From assembly GCA_035561135.1 (NCBI GenBank), contig DATMYA010000008.1:434001-498000 (forward strand): DNA of 64,000 bases, read 5' to 3'. Under the pieces are notes generated by a model that saw nothing but the letters and a program-made list of their open reading frames with translations, was not told where the DNA came from and searched no databases. This DNA comes from Clostridia bacterium. GTDB taxonomy: Bacteria; Acidobacteriota; Terriglobia; Terriglobales; Acidobacteriaceae. A program made the position numbers and the translations under genes. Position 1 is the stretch's first letter, and each line of letters starts with the position of its first letter. Positions 25,191 through 30,275 of the stretch are shown piece by piece.

Positions 25191-25275
25191 GCGAGAGTGG
25201 CGGAATTGGCAGACGCACCAGACTTAGGATCTGGCGGGTAAAACCGTGGGGGTTCGAGTCCCCCCTTTCGCACCA
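25191..25275 (+). tRNA. tRNA-Leu (anticodon UAG)
   Basis: An 85-nt class II tRNA with encoded CCA. Acceptor arms GCGAGAG (25191) and CTTTCGC pair with one G-U; the anticodon stem CCAGA/TCTGG encloses loop CTTAGGA, anticodon TAG, reading CUA. The variable arm has CGG/CCG and the T arm GGGGG-TTCGAGT-CCCCC. The 3' part is the insertion site of the element that follows; the tRNA remains complete because the element supplies the 3' end. Confidence 0.97.
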
Positions 25276-25276
25276 A
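25222..25276. repeat. attL: tRNA-Leu 3' half, direct repeat with 29720-29774
   Basis: 55 bp running from the anticodon loop through CCA. The copy at 29720-29774 differs at two positions only, both in the variable-arm loop (GTAAAA here, GTAACT there). Downstream of the variable arm, 32 bp from CCGTGGGGG to CCAA are identical. This is the usual attachment site of tyrosine-recombinase elements. Confidence 0.93.
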
Positions 25277-25282
25277 ATACTT

Positions 25283-25310
25283 ACGGGCACCCTCATAAGG
25301 TGCCCGTTTT
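25283..25310 (+). terminator. Terminator just downstream of tRNA-Leu, element-borne
   Basis: ACGGGCACC (25283-25291), 7-nt loop, GGTGCCCGT then TTT. It stands inside the element, 7 bp after attL, and would end tRNA transcription before the integrase gene. Confidence 0.85.
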
Positions 25311-25314
25311 GCAT

Positions 25315-25334
25315 TGTGCCCAATTTTGTGCCCA
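25315..25334. repeat. 20-bp repeat, left copy (candidate integrase arm site)
   Basis: TGTGCCCAATTTTGTGCCCA is made of two TGTGCCCA boxes spaced by ATTT. An exact second copy lies at 29582-29601, so one copy lies near each end inside the att sites. Such paired repeats flanking a recombinase element suggest arm-type binding sites. Confidence 0.6.
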
Positions 25335-25351
25335 CCTGAGATTTTCTGTGC

Positions 25352-26437
25352 CTAGTCTCCCGCTGGCGGAAGTGCCGCAAGTGCAGCGTTCGTTGTCTGC
25401 TGAAAGGCGCGGTCTATCGCGTCCGCCTGAGGGTGAACATATCGCTGTGTGATCGTGATTGAGGAGTGCCCAGCGATGCGCGCCAGCGTGAACACATCAC
25501 AGCCCGCCTCTGCTAGTTGCGTCAGCGCCGTGTGCCGGAGCACGTAAGGCGGGAAGGCTTTGATTTCCTTTTCCCGGCTCGCCTTCGCTTTCGCGTTCGC
25601 ACGATCGAGGCCGCGCTTGTGCTGGTCCTTCGCCGTGTCTTTGTTGAGGTGGCCTTCAATCGAGGTGGCGGGGAATACCCAACCCTCTTCCGGCTTGCCC
25701 GCGGAAATATAGCGGTTCGACATGGCGACATACACGGCCGGGACCATCGGGAGCATTCGGCGCGCGGCTTTCGTCTTGCCCTCTGTGACCTGTATAAGCC
25801 CGCCTGTGCCGTTCAGATGGATATTCTCCCACCGCAGCGCGAACACTTCGCCAGGGCGCATTCCTGTGCCGCGAATGATGATTGCAGCGTCTCTCCACGG
25901 CTGCGGGCATTCTGCGATGTACCGTTGCCAATCGCCATCTGTGAGCACGGTGTCACGCTGGCGCTCGCCTTTCGCGAGAGTGATCTTCACGGGCCTGTCC
26001 AGCTTGCCCCACTCGAATGCGAGGTTAAGGGCGCGGCGTAGGGTGCGAAGGCCGCAATTGATGCGGGAAGGGGAGAGGTGGGCATACTTCGCGGCGAAGT
26101 GCTGTGCGTGCTGGTCGCTGATCTTGTCCAGTGGATCAGAGGCCCAATCGCACTTGCAAATCATGTTCGCGCCATCGGTGTAGTATTCGGCCGTTGCGGG
26201 CTTCGCAGCGTGTTTCGTCTCCACGAATGGCACGAAATCGTCTTTCAGAAAATCCGCCAGCGCTGGCGCGGGTTTCTTTTCACGGATGCCCACAAGGCCA
26301 TTCGCTAGCGACGTGCGGTGTGCCGATTCAATGTTGCGCGCCTTCTTGTCATTGCCTTGCTTCGTGGACTCGCGGATCAGCTCGCCATTCCACATGAACT
26401 TGTACCAGTAGACACCGCCGCGCTTGTAAATGGACAT
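25352..26437 (-). CDS. int: Tyrosine recombinase (phage-type integrase)
   Basis: A 361-residue site-specific recombinase. The catalytic residues are visible: Arg in GTGMRPGEVFALRW (about 193), His-x-x-Arg region LRHTALTQLAEAG (about 298), His in GHSSITITQRYVHP (about 320) and the nucleophile Tyr in the same block (about 330). The N-terminal half carries an SAM-like core-binding domain (about 60-165). It reads toward the tRNA and starts 2 bp after the stop of the upstream 26440 gene, so both are translated from one message. It should integrate at attL and, with the excisionase-like protein, excise. Confidence 0.96.
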   Translation of the reverse strand: MSIYKRGGVYWYKFMWNGELIRESTKQGNDKKARNIESAHRTSLANGLVGIREKKPAPALADFLKDDFVPFVETKHAAKPATAEYYTDGANMICKCDWASDPLDKISDQHAQHFAAKYAHLSPSRINCGLRTLRRALNLAFEWGKLDRPVKITLAKGERQRDTVLTDGDWQRYIAECPQPWRDAAIIIRGTGMRPGEVFALRWENIHLNGTGGLIQVTEGKTKAARRMLPMVPAVYVAMSNRYISAGKPEEGWVFPATSIEGHLNKDTAKDQHKRGLDRANAKAKASREKEIKAFPPYVLRHTALTQLAEAGCDVFTLARIAGHSSITITQRYVHPQADAIDRAFQQTTNAALAALPPAGD

Positions 26438-26439
26438 AA

Positions 26440-27300
26440 CTAGCTCTTCGCCTCGTTTCGGTTCCTTCGGACTGATTCAAGATGACCGCAGTATTGATCG
26501 CAGTAGACCCGCTTGTGCTTTGACTCAACTTTGAAGATCTTCGGGCAGTCGCTACGCGCGCATACGCGAAACTCCGTTCCTAGCAAATGATCAACGGTAA
26601 TGGTGCCCAATAGTGCGTCTATGCAAGTTCGAGCTTCAATTCTGAGGTGGGGAAACTCCGGACGGGGCTTTCCGAACGGTAGCGATGCGAATTGTGAACC
26701 TAGCCAATTCGCTGCCGTGCAGAGCAATCCCGAACTAATTAGTTCTCTTACGTCGTAGTACTCATTTGCTGTACGCGGCACAGATACATGCCACACCCGC
26801 TCTGCGAACGTGACCCAGGGAACTATCTTGTTGCTAGAGCGATCAACTGGTTCACGCGGCAGGGTAACGGAATCCCATTGCCCATAGCGCGACAGAAAGG
26901 CCGCTAAGCCGTTCGTCGTTTCATCGAGCTCGAGAAGTTCGTCCCGCATCTGCCATGCGTCAATCTCTTTAGGCACATAACTGACAAGTCTCTTCCCAGC
27001 TTTGATCGGGAAATCAGCTATTAAAGCTTCTGCTGTTCTGTTCTCACGAATTGCGCGGAAGCGCATCGAGTTTTTACCAGTCACCTTGAAAGGAACGACA
27101 TCTCGGAGTTCCGTGGGTAGAACAAAGGGACGCATTCTTTGGCGGAGCCCTTTGTATTCGCCGGGCTCGGTCACTTCCACAACTGTGAAGGTTGAAATTT
27201 CGTCCTCTACCCAGCCAACGCTTTTGACTTTACCTACTGTCCAGCGAAGCGGAGTAGTAGCGAAATCTATTACAGCAGCGACTTGGATTGGGTGTGCCAC
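26440..27300 (-). CDS. Unknown element protein with C-terminal CGNR-like zinc finger
   Basis: A 286-residue protein with no recognisable domain in the first ~230 residues. Near the end, C-x4-C-x14-C-x3-C (CARSDC...VYCDQYC) followed by basic RRNRNEAKS fits a CGNR-type zinc finger, a probable DNA-binding feature. GTG 27300 lies 18 bp from the nearest operator box and has no clear Shine-Dalgarno. It is in one operon with int, so it may regulate recombination or act at the operator; both are inferences. It is not a known phage repressor type. Confidence 0.65.
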   Translation of the reverse strand: MAHPIQVAAVIDFATTPLRWTVGKVKSVGWVEDEISTFTVVEVTEPGEYKGLRQRMRPFVLPTELRDVVPFKVTGKNSMRFRAIRENRTAEALIADFPIKAGKRLVSYVPKEIDAWQMRDELLELDETTNGLAAFLSRYGQWDSVTLPREPVDRSSNKIVPWVTFAERVWHVSVPRTANEYYDVRELISSGLLCTAANWLGSQFASLPFGKPRPEFPHLRIEARTCIDALLGTITVDHLLGTEFRVCARSDCPKIFKVESKHKRVYCDQYCGHLESVRRNRNEAKS

Positions 27301-27317
27301 AATTTGTGTCTCGATTG

Positions 27318-27359
27318 TGGCATTGTGCTATGCCATGCTTCGGTTGTCAAGCATGGCAT
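27318..27359. promoter_or_regulatory. Three-box operator between the divergent element operons
   Basis: TGGCAT (27318-27323), ATGCCA (27330-27335) and TGGCAT (27354-27359) occur in the 88-bp divergent gap. The second and third are part of a longer inverted repeat, TGCCATGCTT (27331-27340) and AAGCATGGCA (27349-27358), separated by 8 bp. This geometry is typical for a homodimeric regulator that controls both directions. The bound protein is not identified. Confidence 0.65.
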
Positions 27360-27388
27360 TCGCTTAGACGTGAATTGGGAGAACCTAA

Positions 27389-27592
27389 ATGGAAAAACTA
27401 TTCTCGGTTACTGAAGCTTCGCAAGTGCTCGGCGGCATTAGCAAATGGACGATACATTCTTGGCTTTCAAAAGGCCGTATTCAGCGAACGAAAGTAGGCT
27501 CTCGGACGCTAATCAGGGAGAGCGAGCTTCAGAAAATCATTGAGGACGGCGGCAAGAGTCAGGCACCGCGCCGCGGAGAGGCAGAGGTATAG
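27389..27592 (+). CDS. Excisionase-like helix-turn-helix protein
   Basis: A 67-residue protein with the MerR-like HTH of the excisionase family: FSVTEASQVLGGISKWTIHSWLSKGRIQRTKVGSRTLIRESELQKII, where VTEAS starts the first helix, WTIHSWLSKG the recognition helix, and KVGSRTLIRESEL the wing. Start ATG 27389 has GGGAGA seven bases before it. It is the first gene of the rightward operon and would direct excision or repress transcription. Size is normal for the family. Confidence 0.85.
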   Translation: MEKLFSVTEASQVLGGISKWTIHSWLSKGRIQRTKVGSRTLIRESELQKIIEDGGKSQAPRRGEAEV

Positions 27593-27595
27593 GGC

Positions 27596-28081
27596 ATGGG
27601 CGCAAACGTAAAGGCTCCAGGTGTTCGAGCACCGGGAGCCTCACCGCTCACTCTCAGTCGCAACGATCAGGAAGCAACAGAAAGGACGGAAGTGGTGACC
27701 AATTCGTTTGCATTGTCCTCCAGCGAGGGCACTACTAGCAAGCAAAAGCAGGGAGTTTTTCCAGCAATACGCGCGCGCGAGGGTGGGCTTTGGCGTGACC
27801 ATCTCGCAACGCCAAAGCAGAGCAAGCTGGTATTCACTGCCGGCAATCGGAAAGCGACACAAGCCGATGTGCTCATTGAGTTGCTACGCCAAGCACGCTA
27901 CGAAAAGCGAGCACTCGAGCTGCCCGAAATCATGGCCGTTGGAATCGCGCAGCACGGAACACGGTTCAATGAGATACGCAAACGCGGTTTCGACGTTCAG
28001 AACGAACAAGAGCGCGACGAGCACGGCCGTGTGCTCTCTCGATATTTCCTAGTACACGACCCGGAGACAGACGCACTGTGA
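27596..28081 (+). CDS. Element protein with winged-helix-like domain
   Basis: A 161-residue protein with a disordered, Ser/Thr-rich N-terminal third (about 1-60). The C-terminal part KATQADVLIELLRQARYEKRALELPEIMAVGIAQHGTRFNEIRKRGFDVQNEQ reads as a helix-turn-helix (helix-rich start, then a recognition-like region) and ends in SRYFLVHDPE, a beta strand. It looks like the small winged-helix proteins found in tRNA-borne elements. The stop overlaps the next start. Its target is unknown. Confidence 0.6.
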   Translation: MGANVKAPGVRAPGASPLTLSRNDQEATERTEVVTNSFALSSSEGTTSKQKQGVFPAIRAREGGLWRDHLATPKQSKLVFTAGNRKATQADVLIELLRQARYEKRALELPEIMAVGIAQHGTRFNEIRKRGFDVQNEQERDEHGRVLSRYFLVHDPETDAL

Positions 28082-28545
28082 CCGTAATGATCGACACGTT
28101 CTTTGGCATTCATCCTCACGTTATTCGCTCTGGACTGTGGGCGAACATGAGGCCGGGTGAAAAAGACCTGTACGTCTATCTCATGGAAGAGAGCGAACGG
28201 TACCGCACACGCGAGCTCAGAAGGACGGATGCGGAGATTCAAGCGGCAGTAGGCACAGCGCCGCGAACACTGTGTGACGCACGAAAGAGACTCGCAGAAC
28301 ACGGCCTGATTGTTTACAGACGCGGGAGCGGGAACAAGTACACCTATGTGATTTGTGACCCTCTGACGCGTGCTCCATATCCGGGAGACGCTGATAAGCC
28401 AGTACCGTACCGCAAGCGCTCTGAGGAGCCTTCAAACGGCAGCAATGAGCCTTCAGTGGGTGGAGCGGCAAGCATCGGCTACTGTGCCGAAGCTGTGAAG
28501 CAACGGCCGGAGGCACACGGCTTACCCGGCGTATTCGATAACTAA
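28078..28545 (+). CDS. Winged-helix replication/regulatory protein of the element
   Basis: A 155-residue protein. VIRSGLWANMRPGEKDLYVYLMEESERYRTRELRRTDAEIQAAVGTAPRTLCDARKRLAEHGLIVYRRGSGNKYTYVI is a winged helix: helices, then TLCDARKRLAEHGLIVYRRG-type recognition helix and wing. This arrangement is shared by replication-initiator N-terminal domains and by phage helix-turn-helix proteins. GTG 28078 overlaps the preceding stop (GTGA); ATG 28087 is an alternative start. The non-coding segment right after it carries inverted repeats, which fits a Rep next to its origin. Role inferred. Confidence 0.6.
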   Translation: MTVMIDTFFGIHPHVIRSGLWANMRPGEKDLYVYLMEESERYRTRELRRTDAEIQAAVGTAPRTLCDARKRLAEHGLIVYRRGSGNKYTYVICDPLTRAPYPGDADKPVPYRKRSEEPSNGSNEPSVGGAASIGYCAEAVKQRPEAHGLPGVFDN

Positions 28546-29117
28546 ACAAGGCAGAGCAGCAAGAATTGCCGAGCTGGTATGAGGGGAGCAGATAAGCAAA
28601 CCTTGCTACACGTCAAGCAATTCTTGCTACTCAGTTCAGCAAGTTCTGCGCTCGCACTTTGCGCAAGTGTCGCACTTGCACTGTGTTGGCGCGCCAGCGT
28701 CCATTCCTAAAACATTCCTACTAAAAGAACATTCCTATTCAATGGTTTTTCTTTCGTAGTTGCTTGCTCGCTATTTGTAGAGCCTCGCACAAGCGTGCTT
28801 TCGGCTGGCGTTTGATTTCTCGAAAATCAATGGCGAAATCAAAGCCGAATGCTGCCTGTAGGGGGAGGGGGTGGTCTCGATCTTCTGGGGATCGTGATTC
28901 AAGACCATGCGGCTAAGAACACGCACGTTTCCGCGAAATTAAAAAACGGCGTTTCTTATGTATGCGCGCGCATGTGAATATCTCCTTCCAAAGAGCGACA
29001 AGCCAGCGCATAATGCGTGCCGTTTTCAGAACGATGCAAATTGTTAAGGATTGTTAAGGTTTCGAAGCACCGCTGCGGGTTTTTGGAGCAGTACGCGCGC
29101 GAGAGGATTACGCACAA
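28546..29117. other. Non-coding segment with inverted repeats; possible origin of the element
   Basis: No gene is visible in 572 bp. AGCAAGAATTGC (28558-28569) and GCAATTCTTGCT (28617-28628) form a perfect 12-bp inverted repeat, with further AGCAA/TTGCT units between and after (about 28594-28608, 28639-28647). A second long inverted repeat runs from TTCGGC (28800-28805) and TTTGATTTC (28811-28819) to GAAATCAAA (28835-28843) and GCCGAA (28844-28849). It is more A+T-rich than the host genes. The combination resembles iterons with a stem-loop. Confidence 0.5.
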
Positions 29118-29372
29118 ATGTTCACGCTGAGCACCATGACACTAACGGCCGTCCTTCTTGGGGCAGCCTATTTCGTCTTCAAGGTCAGCCTCGCGCTTGA
29201 TGCACTCACAAAGCGAGTTGAGCAACTCGAGCACATAGCTGGAGCACCTCGCGGCAGAGAGTGGGGAGATGGCGAAGGGCTAACTCGGCGTGTCCACGAT
29301 CTTGAAAAGCGTCTCTGGGATATGGACGCGGCCGCAATCGGCTCAAAAGTTCCGTACCCTCACGAATACTGA
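29118..29372 (+). CDS. Small membrane protein of the element, coiled-coil tail
   Basis: An 84-residue protein with one membrane segment (about residues 6-27) and a polar, heptad-like tail (LALDALTKRVEQLEHIAG and RRVHDLEKRLWDMD). It may oligomerise through the tail. GAGAGGA precedes ATG 29118 by about 10 bp; ATG 29136 is also possible. With the next gene it forms a pair of tiny membrane proteins. Such proteins sometimes serve in exclusion or lysis in mobile elements; that is speculation here. Confidence 0.55.
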   Translation: MFTLSTMTLTAVLLGAAYFVFKVSLALDALTKRVEQLEHIAGAPRGREWGDGEGLTRRVHDLEKRLWDMDAAAIGSKVPYPHEY

Positions 29373-29397
29373 ACGCAATAATCTCAGGAGGGATTCG

Positions 29398-29571
29398 ATG
29401 TTACTCAGCATCTTGGGTGTGGCCATCATTGTTCAGCTTTGGTTCGTATGTGCGCTACTGCGGGAAATCAGGTTCGCGATTCACCTAGTCACGCAACAGC
29501 TGGAGTATCTCGGAGCACCTCTTGAATTGCACGGCTCGGTACTGTGTGCCGCGAAAAGGGCAAGTGAGTAG
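29398..29571 (+). CDS. Small membrane protein of the element
   Basis: A 57-residue protein. ATG 29398 is fixed by AGGAGG (29386-29391), a strong ribosome site. The first 21 residues form a membrane helix (MLLSILGVAIIVQLWFVCAL) and the rest is an amphipathic stretch (LREIRFAIHLVTQQLEYLGAP). It starts 25 bp after the previous gene and is its likely partner. No function is assigned. Confidence 0.6.
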   Translation: MLLSILGVAIIVQLWFVCALLREIRFAIHLVTQQLEYLGAPLELHGSVLCAAKRASE

Positions 29572-29581
29572 CAACTCTGAC

Positions 29582-29601
29582 TGTGCCCAATTTTGTGCCC
29601 A
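29582..29601. repeat. 20-bp repeat, right copy (candidate integrase arm site)
   Basis: An exact copy of the repeat at 25315-25334, in the same orientation, about 120 bp inside attR. Confidence 0.6.
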
Positions 29602-29719
29602 GTGGTCGGTTGTATGGGCTTGTCTCTCGCAGAACCGCGGTGCGGGAAATGCGCATAAATACTGGACTATCTCAGTTCATGCAAACCGCGCTAAGTTGTT
29701 GATTGTTCGTGCGCCGTGA

Positions 29720-29774
29720 ACTTAGGATCTGGCGGGTAACTCCGTGGGGGTTCGAGTCCCCCCTTTCGCACCAA
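29720..29774. repeat. attR: remnant of the original tRNA-Leu 3' end
   Basis: A 55-bp partial copy of tRNA-Leu from the anticodon loop to CCA, not a tRNA by itself because the 5' half is absent. Its two differences from attL lie in the variable-arm loop, so this copy probably preserves the pre-integration chromosomal sequence. Confidence 0.93.
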
Positions 29775-29781
29775 GAGCTTG

Positions 29782-29807
29782 GGGCCGATATAAGAATCGG
29801 CCCTTCT
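29782..29807 (+). terminator. Original chromosomal terminator of tRNA-Leu, stranded at attR
   Basis: GGGCCGAT (29782-29789), loop ATAAGA, ATCGGCCC then TTCTT. It lies 7 bp beyond the attR tRNA remnant, in the same relative position as the element-borne terminator beyond attL. Confidence 0.7.
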
Positions 29808-29981: not shown

Positions 29982-30275
29982 ATGGCCGCTCCACAGCAGC
30001 CCGAAATCAACGTAAGCAATACCGAAGACTACCGCGAGAATTATGCCAACAGCGTGCAGGTGCGCGTTAACGTTTGGGACTTTTTTCTGTGCTTTGGGAC
30101 TCTGACGCCCGCGTCCGAAGAACGGCTGGAGGTGCGTAACTTCCAGGGCATCTATCTGAGTCCGCAGCAAGCCAAGGCGCTCGCAAACATCCTGGCGCAG
30201 AATCTCGTGAACTACGAGCAGACGTTCGGAGAGATCAAACTCGATCCGCGAATGGCATCCGGGCCAATCCACTAA
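29982..30275 (+). CDS. DUF3467 family protein
   Basis: A 97-residue soluble protein. The NYANSVQVRVNVWDFFLCFG start and the closing LSPQQAKALANILAQNLVNYEQTFGEI match DUF3467, a small beta-strand-plus-helix family found across bacteria with no settled function. It starts 26 bp before the glycosyltransferase gene ends its leader and may be co-transcribed with it. It lies just outside the element. Confidence 0.85.
   Translation: MAAPQQPEINVSNTEDYRENYANSVQVRVNVWDFFLCFGTLTPASEERLEVRNFQGIYLSPQQAKALANILAQNLVNYEQTFGEIKLDPRMASGPIH

Follow-up and report, generated by a model that had tools for sequence, protein, structure and literature searches.

Genome comparison places a 4.5-kb element in tRNA-Leu among the smallest members of a family of tRNA islands in Acidobacteriota

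Introduction

What kind of element lies between two copies of the 3′ half of a tRNA-Leu gene in an acidobacterial genome, and does it stand alone? We analyzed a 64,000-nt stretch (hereafter the window; positions 434,001 to 498,000 of contig DATMYA010000008.1, assembly GCA_035561135.1, filed as Clostridia bacterium and placed by GTDB in the Acidobacteriaceae), in which a reading made from the sequence alone had proposed a compact, cargo-free integrative element of about 4.5 kb for which it could name no described family and which may be a new class. Acidobacteriota dominate many soils, and in the open literature searched we came across no satellite or small integrative element described from this phylum. 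The comparisons below indicate that the window element is neither an artefact nor a one-off, and that it is an intact member, one of the smallest, of a previously uncatalogued family of Acidobacteriota tRNA islands.

Insertion of the element into tRNA-Leu

The tRNA-Leu gene is the sole tRNA gene within the window, and its 3′ part constitutes attL. The displaced copy, attR, differs from attL by 2 mismatches over 55 nt at a spacing of 4,498 nt, which bears out the clean att repeats and the size given by the sequence-only reading (Table 1). The element is present as a single copy in its own genome. In relatives, the tRNA-Leu gene lies directly upstream of a conserved 97-aa gene (29982-30275 in the window) with no element in between; examples of this empty junction are G001 (L091), G021 (L090), G029 (L093), G018 (L089), G017 (L111) and G033 (L112). 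That reading had counted a lack of the att duplication in empty relatives against its proposal, which is the wrong way round: the absence, as seen here, supports insertion.

The tRNA-side repeat copy reads GGGTAAAACCG, as do the tRNA-Leu genes of L049 and L203, which are occupied by integrases 75-79% identical to that of the element. Unoccupied relatives differ from this reading, and the far copy, GGGTAACTCCG, is identical to the tRNA-Leu allele of G023 (L113). The distribution indicates that the two mismatches are alleles, not mutations, and that the crossover fell within the anticodon or close to it, upstream of the variable loop. Since the tRNA-side allele is common to the three occupied genomes and other alleles are found in unoccupied ones, the tRNA 3′ half was carried in by the element; as both repeat copies are unmutated, the insertion looks recent. 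Each tRNA copy is followed by a terminator-like hairpin, so that the element also brings a replacement for the displaced tRNA terminator.

A 20-bp sequence, TGGGCACAAAATTGGGCACA when read on the int strand, is repeated without mismatch and in direct orientation just inside both ends of the element; no further copy was found elsewhere in the 64 kb, even at 3 mismatches, nor in shuffled sequences. The motif recurs 3′ of the int stop codon in ~25 related loci, and most of the smaller delimited elements carry a second copy at their far end. Occurrence at both ends together with conservation after int is the behaviour of integrase arm-type sites. The locus thus combines what is expected of a tRNA-targeting tyrosine integrase, namely a duplicated tRNA 3′ end, int beside the tRNA and an empty site in relatives. 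Taken at the level of genome comparison, empty sites, alleles, arm sites and terminators prove the insertion independently of the att repeats.

In G023, a second perfect 55-nt att copy lies 88 bp downstream of tRNA-Leu, with ~87 bp between the copies (L113:1212-1438); the arrangement resembles what an element deleted from this site would leave behind.

A family of tRNA islands in Acidobacteriota

Of the 398 genomes of the same family that were sampled, 45 (~11%, the element's own genome included) encode a homologue of the integrase (E<=1e-60), and these are distributed over 19 of 79 genera. A scan of an 84,980-species collection yielded 33 loci, almost all of which belong to records with an Acidobacteriota name; one comes from a metagenome-assembled genome labelled Bordetella, with the same contig as G107 of the window's class, and another is a weak Tannerella match. 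The scatter over several tRNA types in these genera implies horizontal spread. We found no existing name for the island family in the published literature searched.

Thirteen elements, the window element included, could be fully delimited (4.5-18.8 kb, seven tRNA types, tRNA repeats of 34-58 nt). They measure 4.50 and 18.8 kb at tRNA-Leu, 4.49 kb at tRNA-Arg, 6.38 kb at tRNA-Ser, 7.13 kb at tRNA-Pro, 7.34, 7.67 and 12.9 kb at tRNA-Met, 12.3 kb at tRNA-Thr, and 10.0, 12.05, 15.7 and 18.0 kb at tRNA-Lys. Most have in common the arm sites, int preceded by a gene for a CGNR-type zinc-finger protein (int-CGNR), and a divergent xis, while replication genes and cargo vary; in L070 a serine recombinase takes the CGNR place, and xis was not detected in L053. 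The window element shows the full set, with an A1-type Int, TGGGCACA-N4-TGGGCACA arms at both ends, CGNR upstream of int and a divergent xis. Its sister in another genus, L058/L024 at tRNA-Arg, has a spacing of 4,492, almost the same gene order and the same arms, at identities of 46% for int, 74% for xis and 66% over 94 aa for orf161. A module so easily recognised, by arm motif, int-CGNR, xis and tRNA repeat, could be used to find and delimit such islands automatically.

Cargo in the larger members comprises type IIG restriction-modification, toxin-antitoxin-type, protease, ankyrin and secreted-repeat genes. When 99 proteins from the delimited elements were scanned as a pool, replication enzymes, resolvases and cargo were recovered; the 25 families best represented in each library included no capsid, terminase, portal or relaxase. 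In line with the sequence-only reading, close relatives occupy other tRNAs within elements that lack structural genes, and the structural or transfer genes that might have told against it are missing from the families listed for elements of 4.5-18.8 kb. Its "new class", however, went too far: the element is one of the smallest in a family with cargo in many members, and the module also occurs in at least one prophage.

The closest tRNA-Leu occupants, L049 and L203, are degraded and yielded no distal att; int is frameshifted in L049, whereas in L203 it is truncated and lies next to a transposase-like gene. L032, of a more distant design, is a 5.34-kb element at tRNA-Val with 46-nt perfect repeats, and contains a CGNR-type protein, xis, a wh155 relative and a Panacea antitoxin. 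At L067/L169 and L075/L170, two successive tRNA repeats lie beyond the int-proximal one, which suggests tandem or composite islands at the same tRNA.

Integrase, CGNR partner and control region

Comparison of int with that of L045 gave dN 0.14 and dS 1.40 (substitutions per nonsynonymous and synonymous site); the ratio of ~0.1 points to purifying selection. The CGNR gene ends 2 nt before the int start, and both form one minus-strand unit. In relatives the junction is likewise an overlap or a gap of few nt, and CGNR is conserved beside int. CGNR is a usual partner of this integrase, and the protein is likely an Int accessory or regulator.

The sequence-only reading had named two Rep-like or winged-helix proteins. 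Its call stands for the 28078 protein (wh155), which matches phrog_270 and, in Foldseek, phage Rep proteins; for the 26440 protein it was rejected, given the CGNR-type zinc finger at the C-terminal end. The PF11706 match to this finger falls just below the curated cut-off, and the predicted fold is of low confidence (mean predicted local distance difference test score, pLDDT, 57).

The int-CGNR unit and the xis operon diverge from a short control region whose perfect 11-nt palindrome was reached by 1 of 3000 shuffles. The same layout, with a GAAGCATGGCAT operator-promoter core, is found in front of the CGNR gene of L051. A sigma-70 scan returned fewer promoters than in shuffles, and its single hit coincides with the L051-like operator/promoter arrangement.

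The integrases of L021/L051, L050, L052 and L179 have a Cys-rich, zinc-finger-like insert between the arm-binding and core domains, which resembles the CGNR finger of the partner. In the host genome, a second CGNR-type gene (L026; G000:C14, ~107 kb) has a weak xis match and adjoins large genes, without this integrase.

The xis operon and a candidate replication module

The genes xis, orf161 and wh155 are tightly packed, with a 3-nt gap followed by a 4-nt overlap. Xis is 55-79% identical in several relatives. Relatives of orf161 adjoin replication-type genes elsewhere (L079, L080, L081, L084 and L086), and orf161 had no match in the viral contigs, phage or plasmid records searched. The model of wh155 is a winged helix (pLDDT ~80 for residues 10-100), and most of its structure matches in the viral library are replication initiators, annotated as "replication initiator A", "replication protein C", "replisome organizer" or the N-terminal part of lambda GpO (best E ~4e-4). 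In sister elements the slot after xis is filled by DnaB/AAA_25 helicases (L049, L070, L021), a DUF3631 protein (L053) or a primase (L047); L048 has another helix-turn-helix (HTH) initiator-like protein there, and L058, L045 and L050 have members of a 158-205-aa family whose function is unknown. The initiator matches of wh155 and the swapping of replication genes at this position support, and do not prove, a role in replication. The 158-205-aa family (L058:7899-8462; L045, L050, L079, L080) is found with orf161 and/or xis in compact elements and has no convincing Pfam, PHROG or NCBIfam match.

After wh155, ~570 nt are devoid of a credible gene. Repeats are modestly enriched in this candidate origin (p ~0.003-0.007 for 7-10-mers), and its first 215 nt, 28546-28760, give a DNA fold z of -3.0. 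The two small open reading frames (ORFs) that follow, with predicted transmembrane (TM) and coiled-coil segments, are credible as genes from their codon-position GC and, for the second, a Shine-Dalgarno sequence; for the 84-aa protein there was no convincing family match in Pfam and NCBIfam. Pfam, PHROGs and NCBIfam revealed no virion, conjugation or defence genes in the element. On the repeat-bearing segment, the two small proteins and these missing genes, and on the tyrosine recombinase and the excisionase-like protein, the sequence-only reading was right. A 35-nt direct repeat, 80% identical, links 27748-27782 inside orf161 with 29072-29106 just upstream of the 84-aa ORF.

Table 1. Features of the element and its insertion site (window coordinates).
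Feature	Position	Strand	Basis
tRNA-Leu (anticodon TAG), intact	25191..25275	+	ARAGORN and allele comparison
attL core repeat, 55 nt	25222..25276	+	Direct-repeat search
Intrinsic-terminator-like hairpin 3′ of left tRNA copy	25283..25307	+	RNA fold -19.0 kcal/mol
Inner (arm-type) integrase site TGGGCACAAAATTGGGCACA, left end	25315..25334	-	Repeat and conservation
Tyrosine integrase (int), 361 aa	25352..26437	-	PF00589 E=1.8e-22; phrog_1 E=2.6e-47
CGNR-type zinc-finger protein, 286 aa, GTG start	26440..27300	-	PF11706 E=2.4e-4
Divergent control region, 88 nt	27301..27388	.	Between int-CGNR unit and xis operon
Promoter-like TTGACA-17-CACAAT	27350-27322	-	
Perfect 11-nt palindrome ATGCCATGCTT-8-AAGCATGGCAT	27330-27359	.	
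Excisionase-like HTH_17 protein (xis), 67 aa	27389..27592	+	PF12728 E=6.2e-9; TIGR01764 above cut-off
orf161, winged-HTH-like, second xis-operon gene	27596..28081	+	HTH_39 E=0.029 (weak)
wh155, winged-helix replication-initiator-like	28078..28545	+	phrog_270 (replication initiation protein) E=3.8e-5
Non-coding repeat-bearing segment, candidate replication origin	28546..29117	.	49% GC, relatively AT-rich
Small membrane and coiled-coil protein, 84 aa	29118..29372	+	ORF, coding-like codon-position GC
Small membrane (TM and coiled-coil) protein, 57 aa	29398..29571	+	ORF, coding-like codon-position GC, AGGAGGG Shine-Dalgarno
Inner (arm-type) integrase site, right end, identical to left	29582..29601	-	
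attR core repeat, 55 nt, displaced 3′ half of host tRNA-Leu	29720..29774	+	
Native tRNA terminator, displaced by insertion	29781..29804	+	

Comparison with known elements

The closest parallel in layout is with the phage-inducible chromosomal minimalist islands (PICMIs) of Vibrionaceae, 6.1-kb elements with large non-coding regions and the gene order int/iolg/alpA/up1/prim (PMC10803314). In these, iolg overlaps int, usually by 4 nt, and is needed for excision; the int-adjacent genes fall into 13 families, all of unknown function; alpA encodes an excisionase-type activator and is followed by a small gene and a primase (PMC10803314). The window element repeats this order, with a PF00589-type integrase, CGNR in the place of iolg, an AlpA-type gene (xis, through PF12728, which counts for this type alongside PF05930), an intermediate small gene and a non-coding region, and without capsid or packaging genes. 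The sequence-only reading could name no fitting family; in layout the element comes close to the PICMIs. PICMIs adjoin fis, with 17-bp repeats in PICMI115, and a DUF3987/DUF5906 primase is part of their definition (PMC10803314), whereas the window element, from another phylum, sits at tRNA-Leu with 55-bp repeats and has no such primase, carrying the winged-helix wh155 instead. With the fis site and the primase both missing, it is not counted as a PICMI. The likeness of CGNR to iolg is one of position, and a helper of the window element is putative.

Phage satellites are quoted at 6-18 kb (PMC11389934), compared with 4.5 kb here. Phage-inducible chromosomal islands (PICIs), P4-like satellites and capsid-forming PICIs (cfPICIs) share with the window element site-specific integration, int, an AlpA/Xis-type regulator, a replication module and the lack of a full virion set; no small terminase subunit (TerS), ppi, sid/psu or capsid genes were recognised in it by Pfam, PHROGs and NCBIfam. 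Integrative replicons of the actinomycete integrative and conjugative element (AICE) or pSAM2 type combine a tRNA att site, Int/Xis, a Rep-type protein and a TraB-type FtsK-like transfer protein. The window element has the first three, but differs from AICEs, which belong to another phylum, and from integrative conjugative or mobilizable elements in that no relaxase or TraB/FtsK-like transfer protein was recognised.

The integration module also occurs in a phage context. IMG/VR contig 3300005529_001120 (L078, L119) encodes an integrase of 44% identity with a CGNR-type partner and the arm motif at its end, and carries portal, large terminase, lysozyme-like, primase/helicase and PIF1-like genes, as read from its ORFs; the portal, terminase, lysozyme-like, primase and helicase genes are absent from the window element. 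This contig indicates that the small islands have their integration module in common with one prophage or more. Such sharing would be expected from an exchange of modules between islands and phages, or if some of the islands were satellites. Two portal-bearing phage regions in the host genome are candidate helper prophages.

Proposed mechanism and alternative explanations

We lean towards reading the window element as a replicative, non-self-transmissible integrative element that depends on a helper and is laid out like PICMI satellites. Int-mediated integration is well supported: the sequence shows that an attP made of the tRNA 3′ half recombined with tRNA-Leu and that the element restored the tRNA 3′ half and a terminator. 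The int-CGNR operon may then maintain integration under the shared operator until derepression of the divergent xis-orf161-wh155 operon, when Xis and Int, perhaps with CGNR, would excise a 4,498-bp circle. Replication after excision is probable, and wh155 (with orf161) would start it at the non-coding segment using host replication proteins. Lacking genes for packaging and conjugation, the element must rely on a helper to pass between cells, and a phage is the most plausible one, given the example of PICMI satellites. Dependence on a helper phage is the least supported step, and we consider such transfer possible but slightly doubtful.

Several points weigh against this reading. The support for excision, circles, replication and transfer is sequence-based, none of it direct. 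The PDB matches of wh155 include generic winged helices (best E=0.012), so it could be a regulator. Homologues of wh155 are rare, with 4 among 150 relatives when its own genome is counted, and at the sensitivity of the searches phage and plasmid records contained none. No DNA common to the element and the resident prophages was found beyond chance 14-16-mers, and thus no packaging signal was identified.

A small integrative plasmid or AICE-like replicon would excise, replicate via wh155 and spread through natural transformation or conjugative mobilisation instead of through a phage. It would also suit the replication-type genes that occupy one position throughout the family, the ordinary cargo of larger members (type IIG restriction-modification and toxin-antitoxin genes) and the absence of a recognised TerS or capsid-related gene. 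We regard this as rather unlikely, as no relaxase or TraB/FtsK-like gene was recognised in the element, the relaxase match in the host genome lies on a 13.6-kb contig (C2) to which no link was found, and a real prophage has the same integration module.

It is improbable that the element is the deletion remnant of a temperate phage using this integrase, as L078 does, left with integration and early genes. No end, arm site or core ORF is damaged, int shows purifying selection, a sister of near-identical size occupies another tRNA in another genus, and wh155 and orf161 have no match in viral contigs or phage genomes; these observations outweigh the presence of portal, terminase, primase and the CGNR-int-arm module on the one L078 contig and the existence of decayed copies (L049, L203). 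An island mobile only within its cell or lineage, with functional Int/Xis but neither replication nor horizontal transfer and with wh155 as a transcriptional regulator, agrees with the MarR/AspA-type regulators that are the best PDB matches of the wh155 model, but is very improbable in view of the replication initiators that dominate the viral-library matches, the helicases and primases at the same position in sisters and the horizontal spread implied by the scattered tRNA sites.

For the helper-dependent reading, a wider proposal can be made tentatively: the islands may include very small helper-dependent Acidobacteriota replicons (the smallest 4.5 kb) with an obligatory CGNR partner of Int, exchangeable replication cassettes and a module shared with helper phages, a PICMI analogue in another phylum. 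Should the 4.5-kb forms turn out to be mobile, they would rank with the smallest known hitch-hiking elements and would offer a second system in which to test the role of int-adjacent genes of unknown function, PICMI iolg among them.

Among viral contigs the arm pattern alone is unspecific, as a related integrase lies beside it in only some of 17 contigs. In L132 (IMG/VR 3300027911_000471), a related integrase is located at tRNA-Arg; a D5-type helicase lies to one side, and terminase-like genes directly adjoin the tRNA on its other flank.

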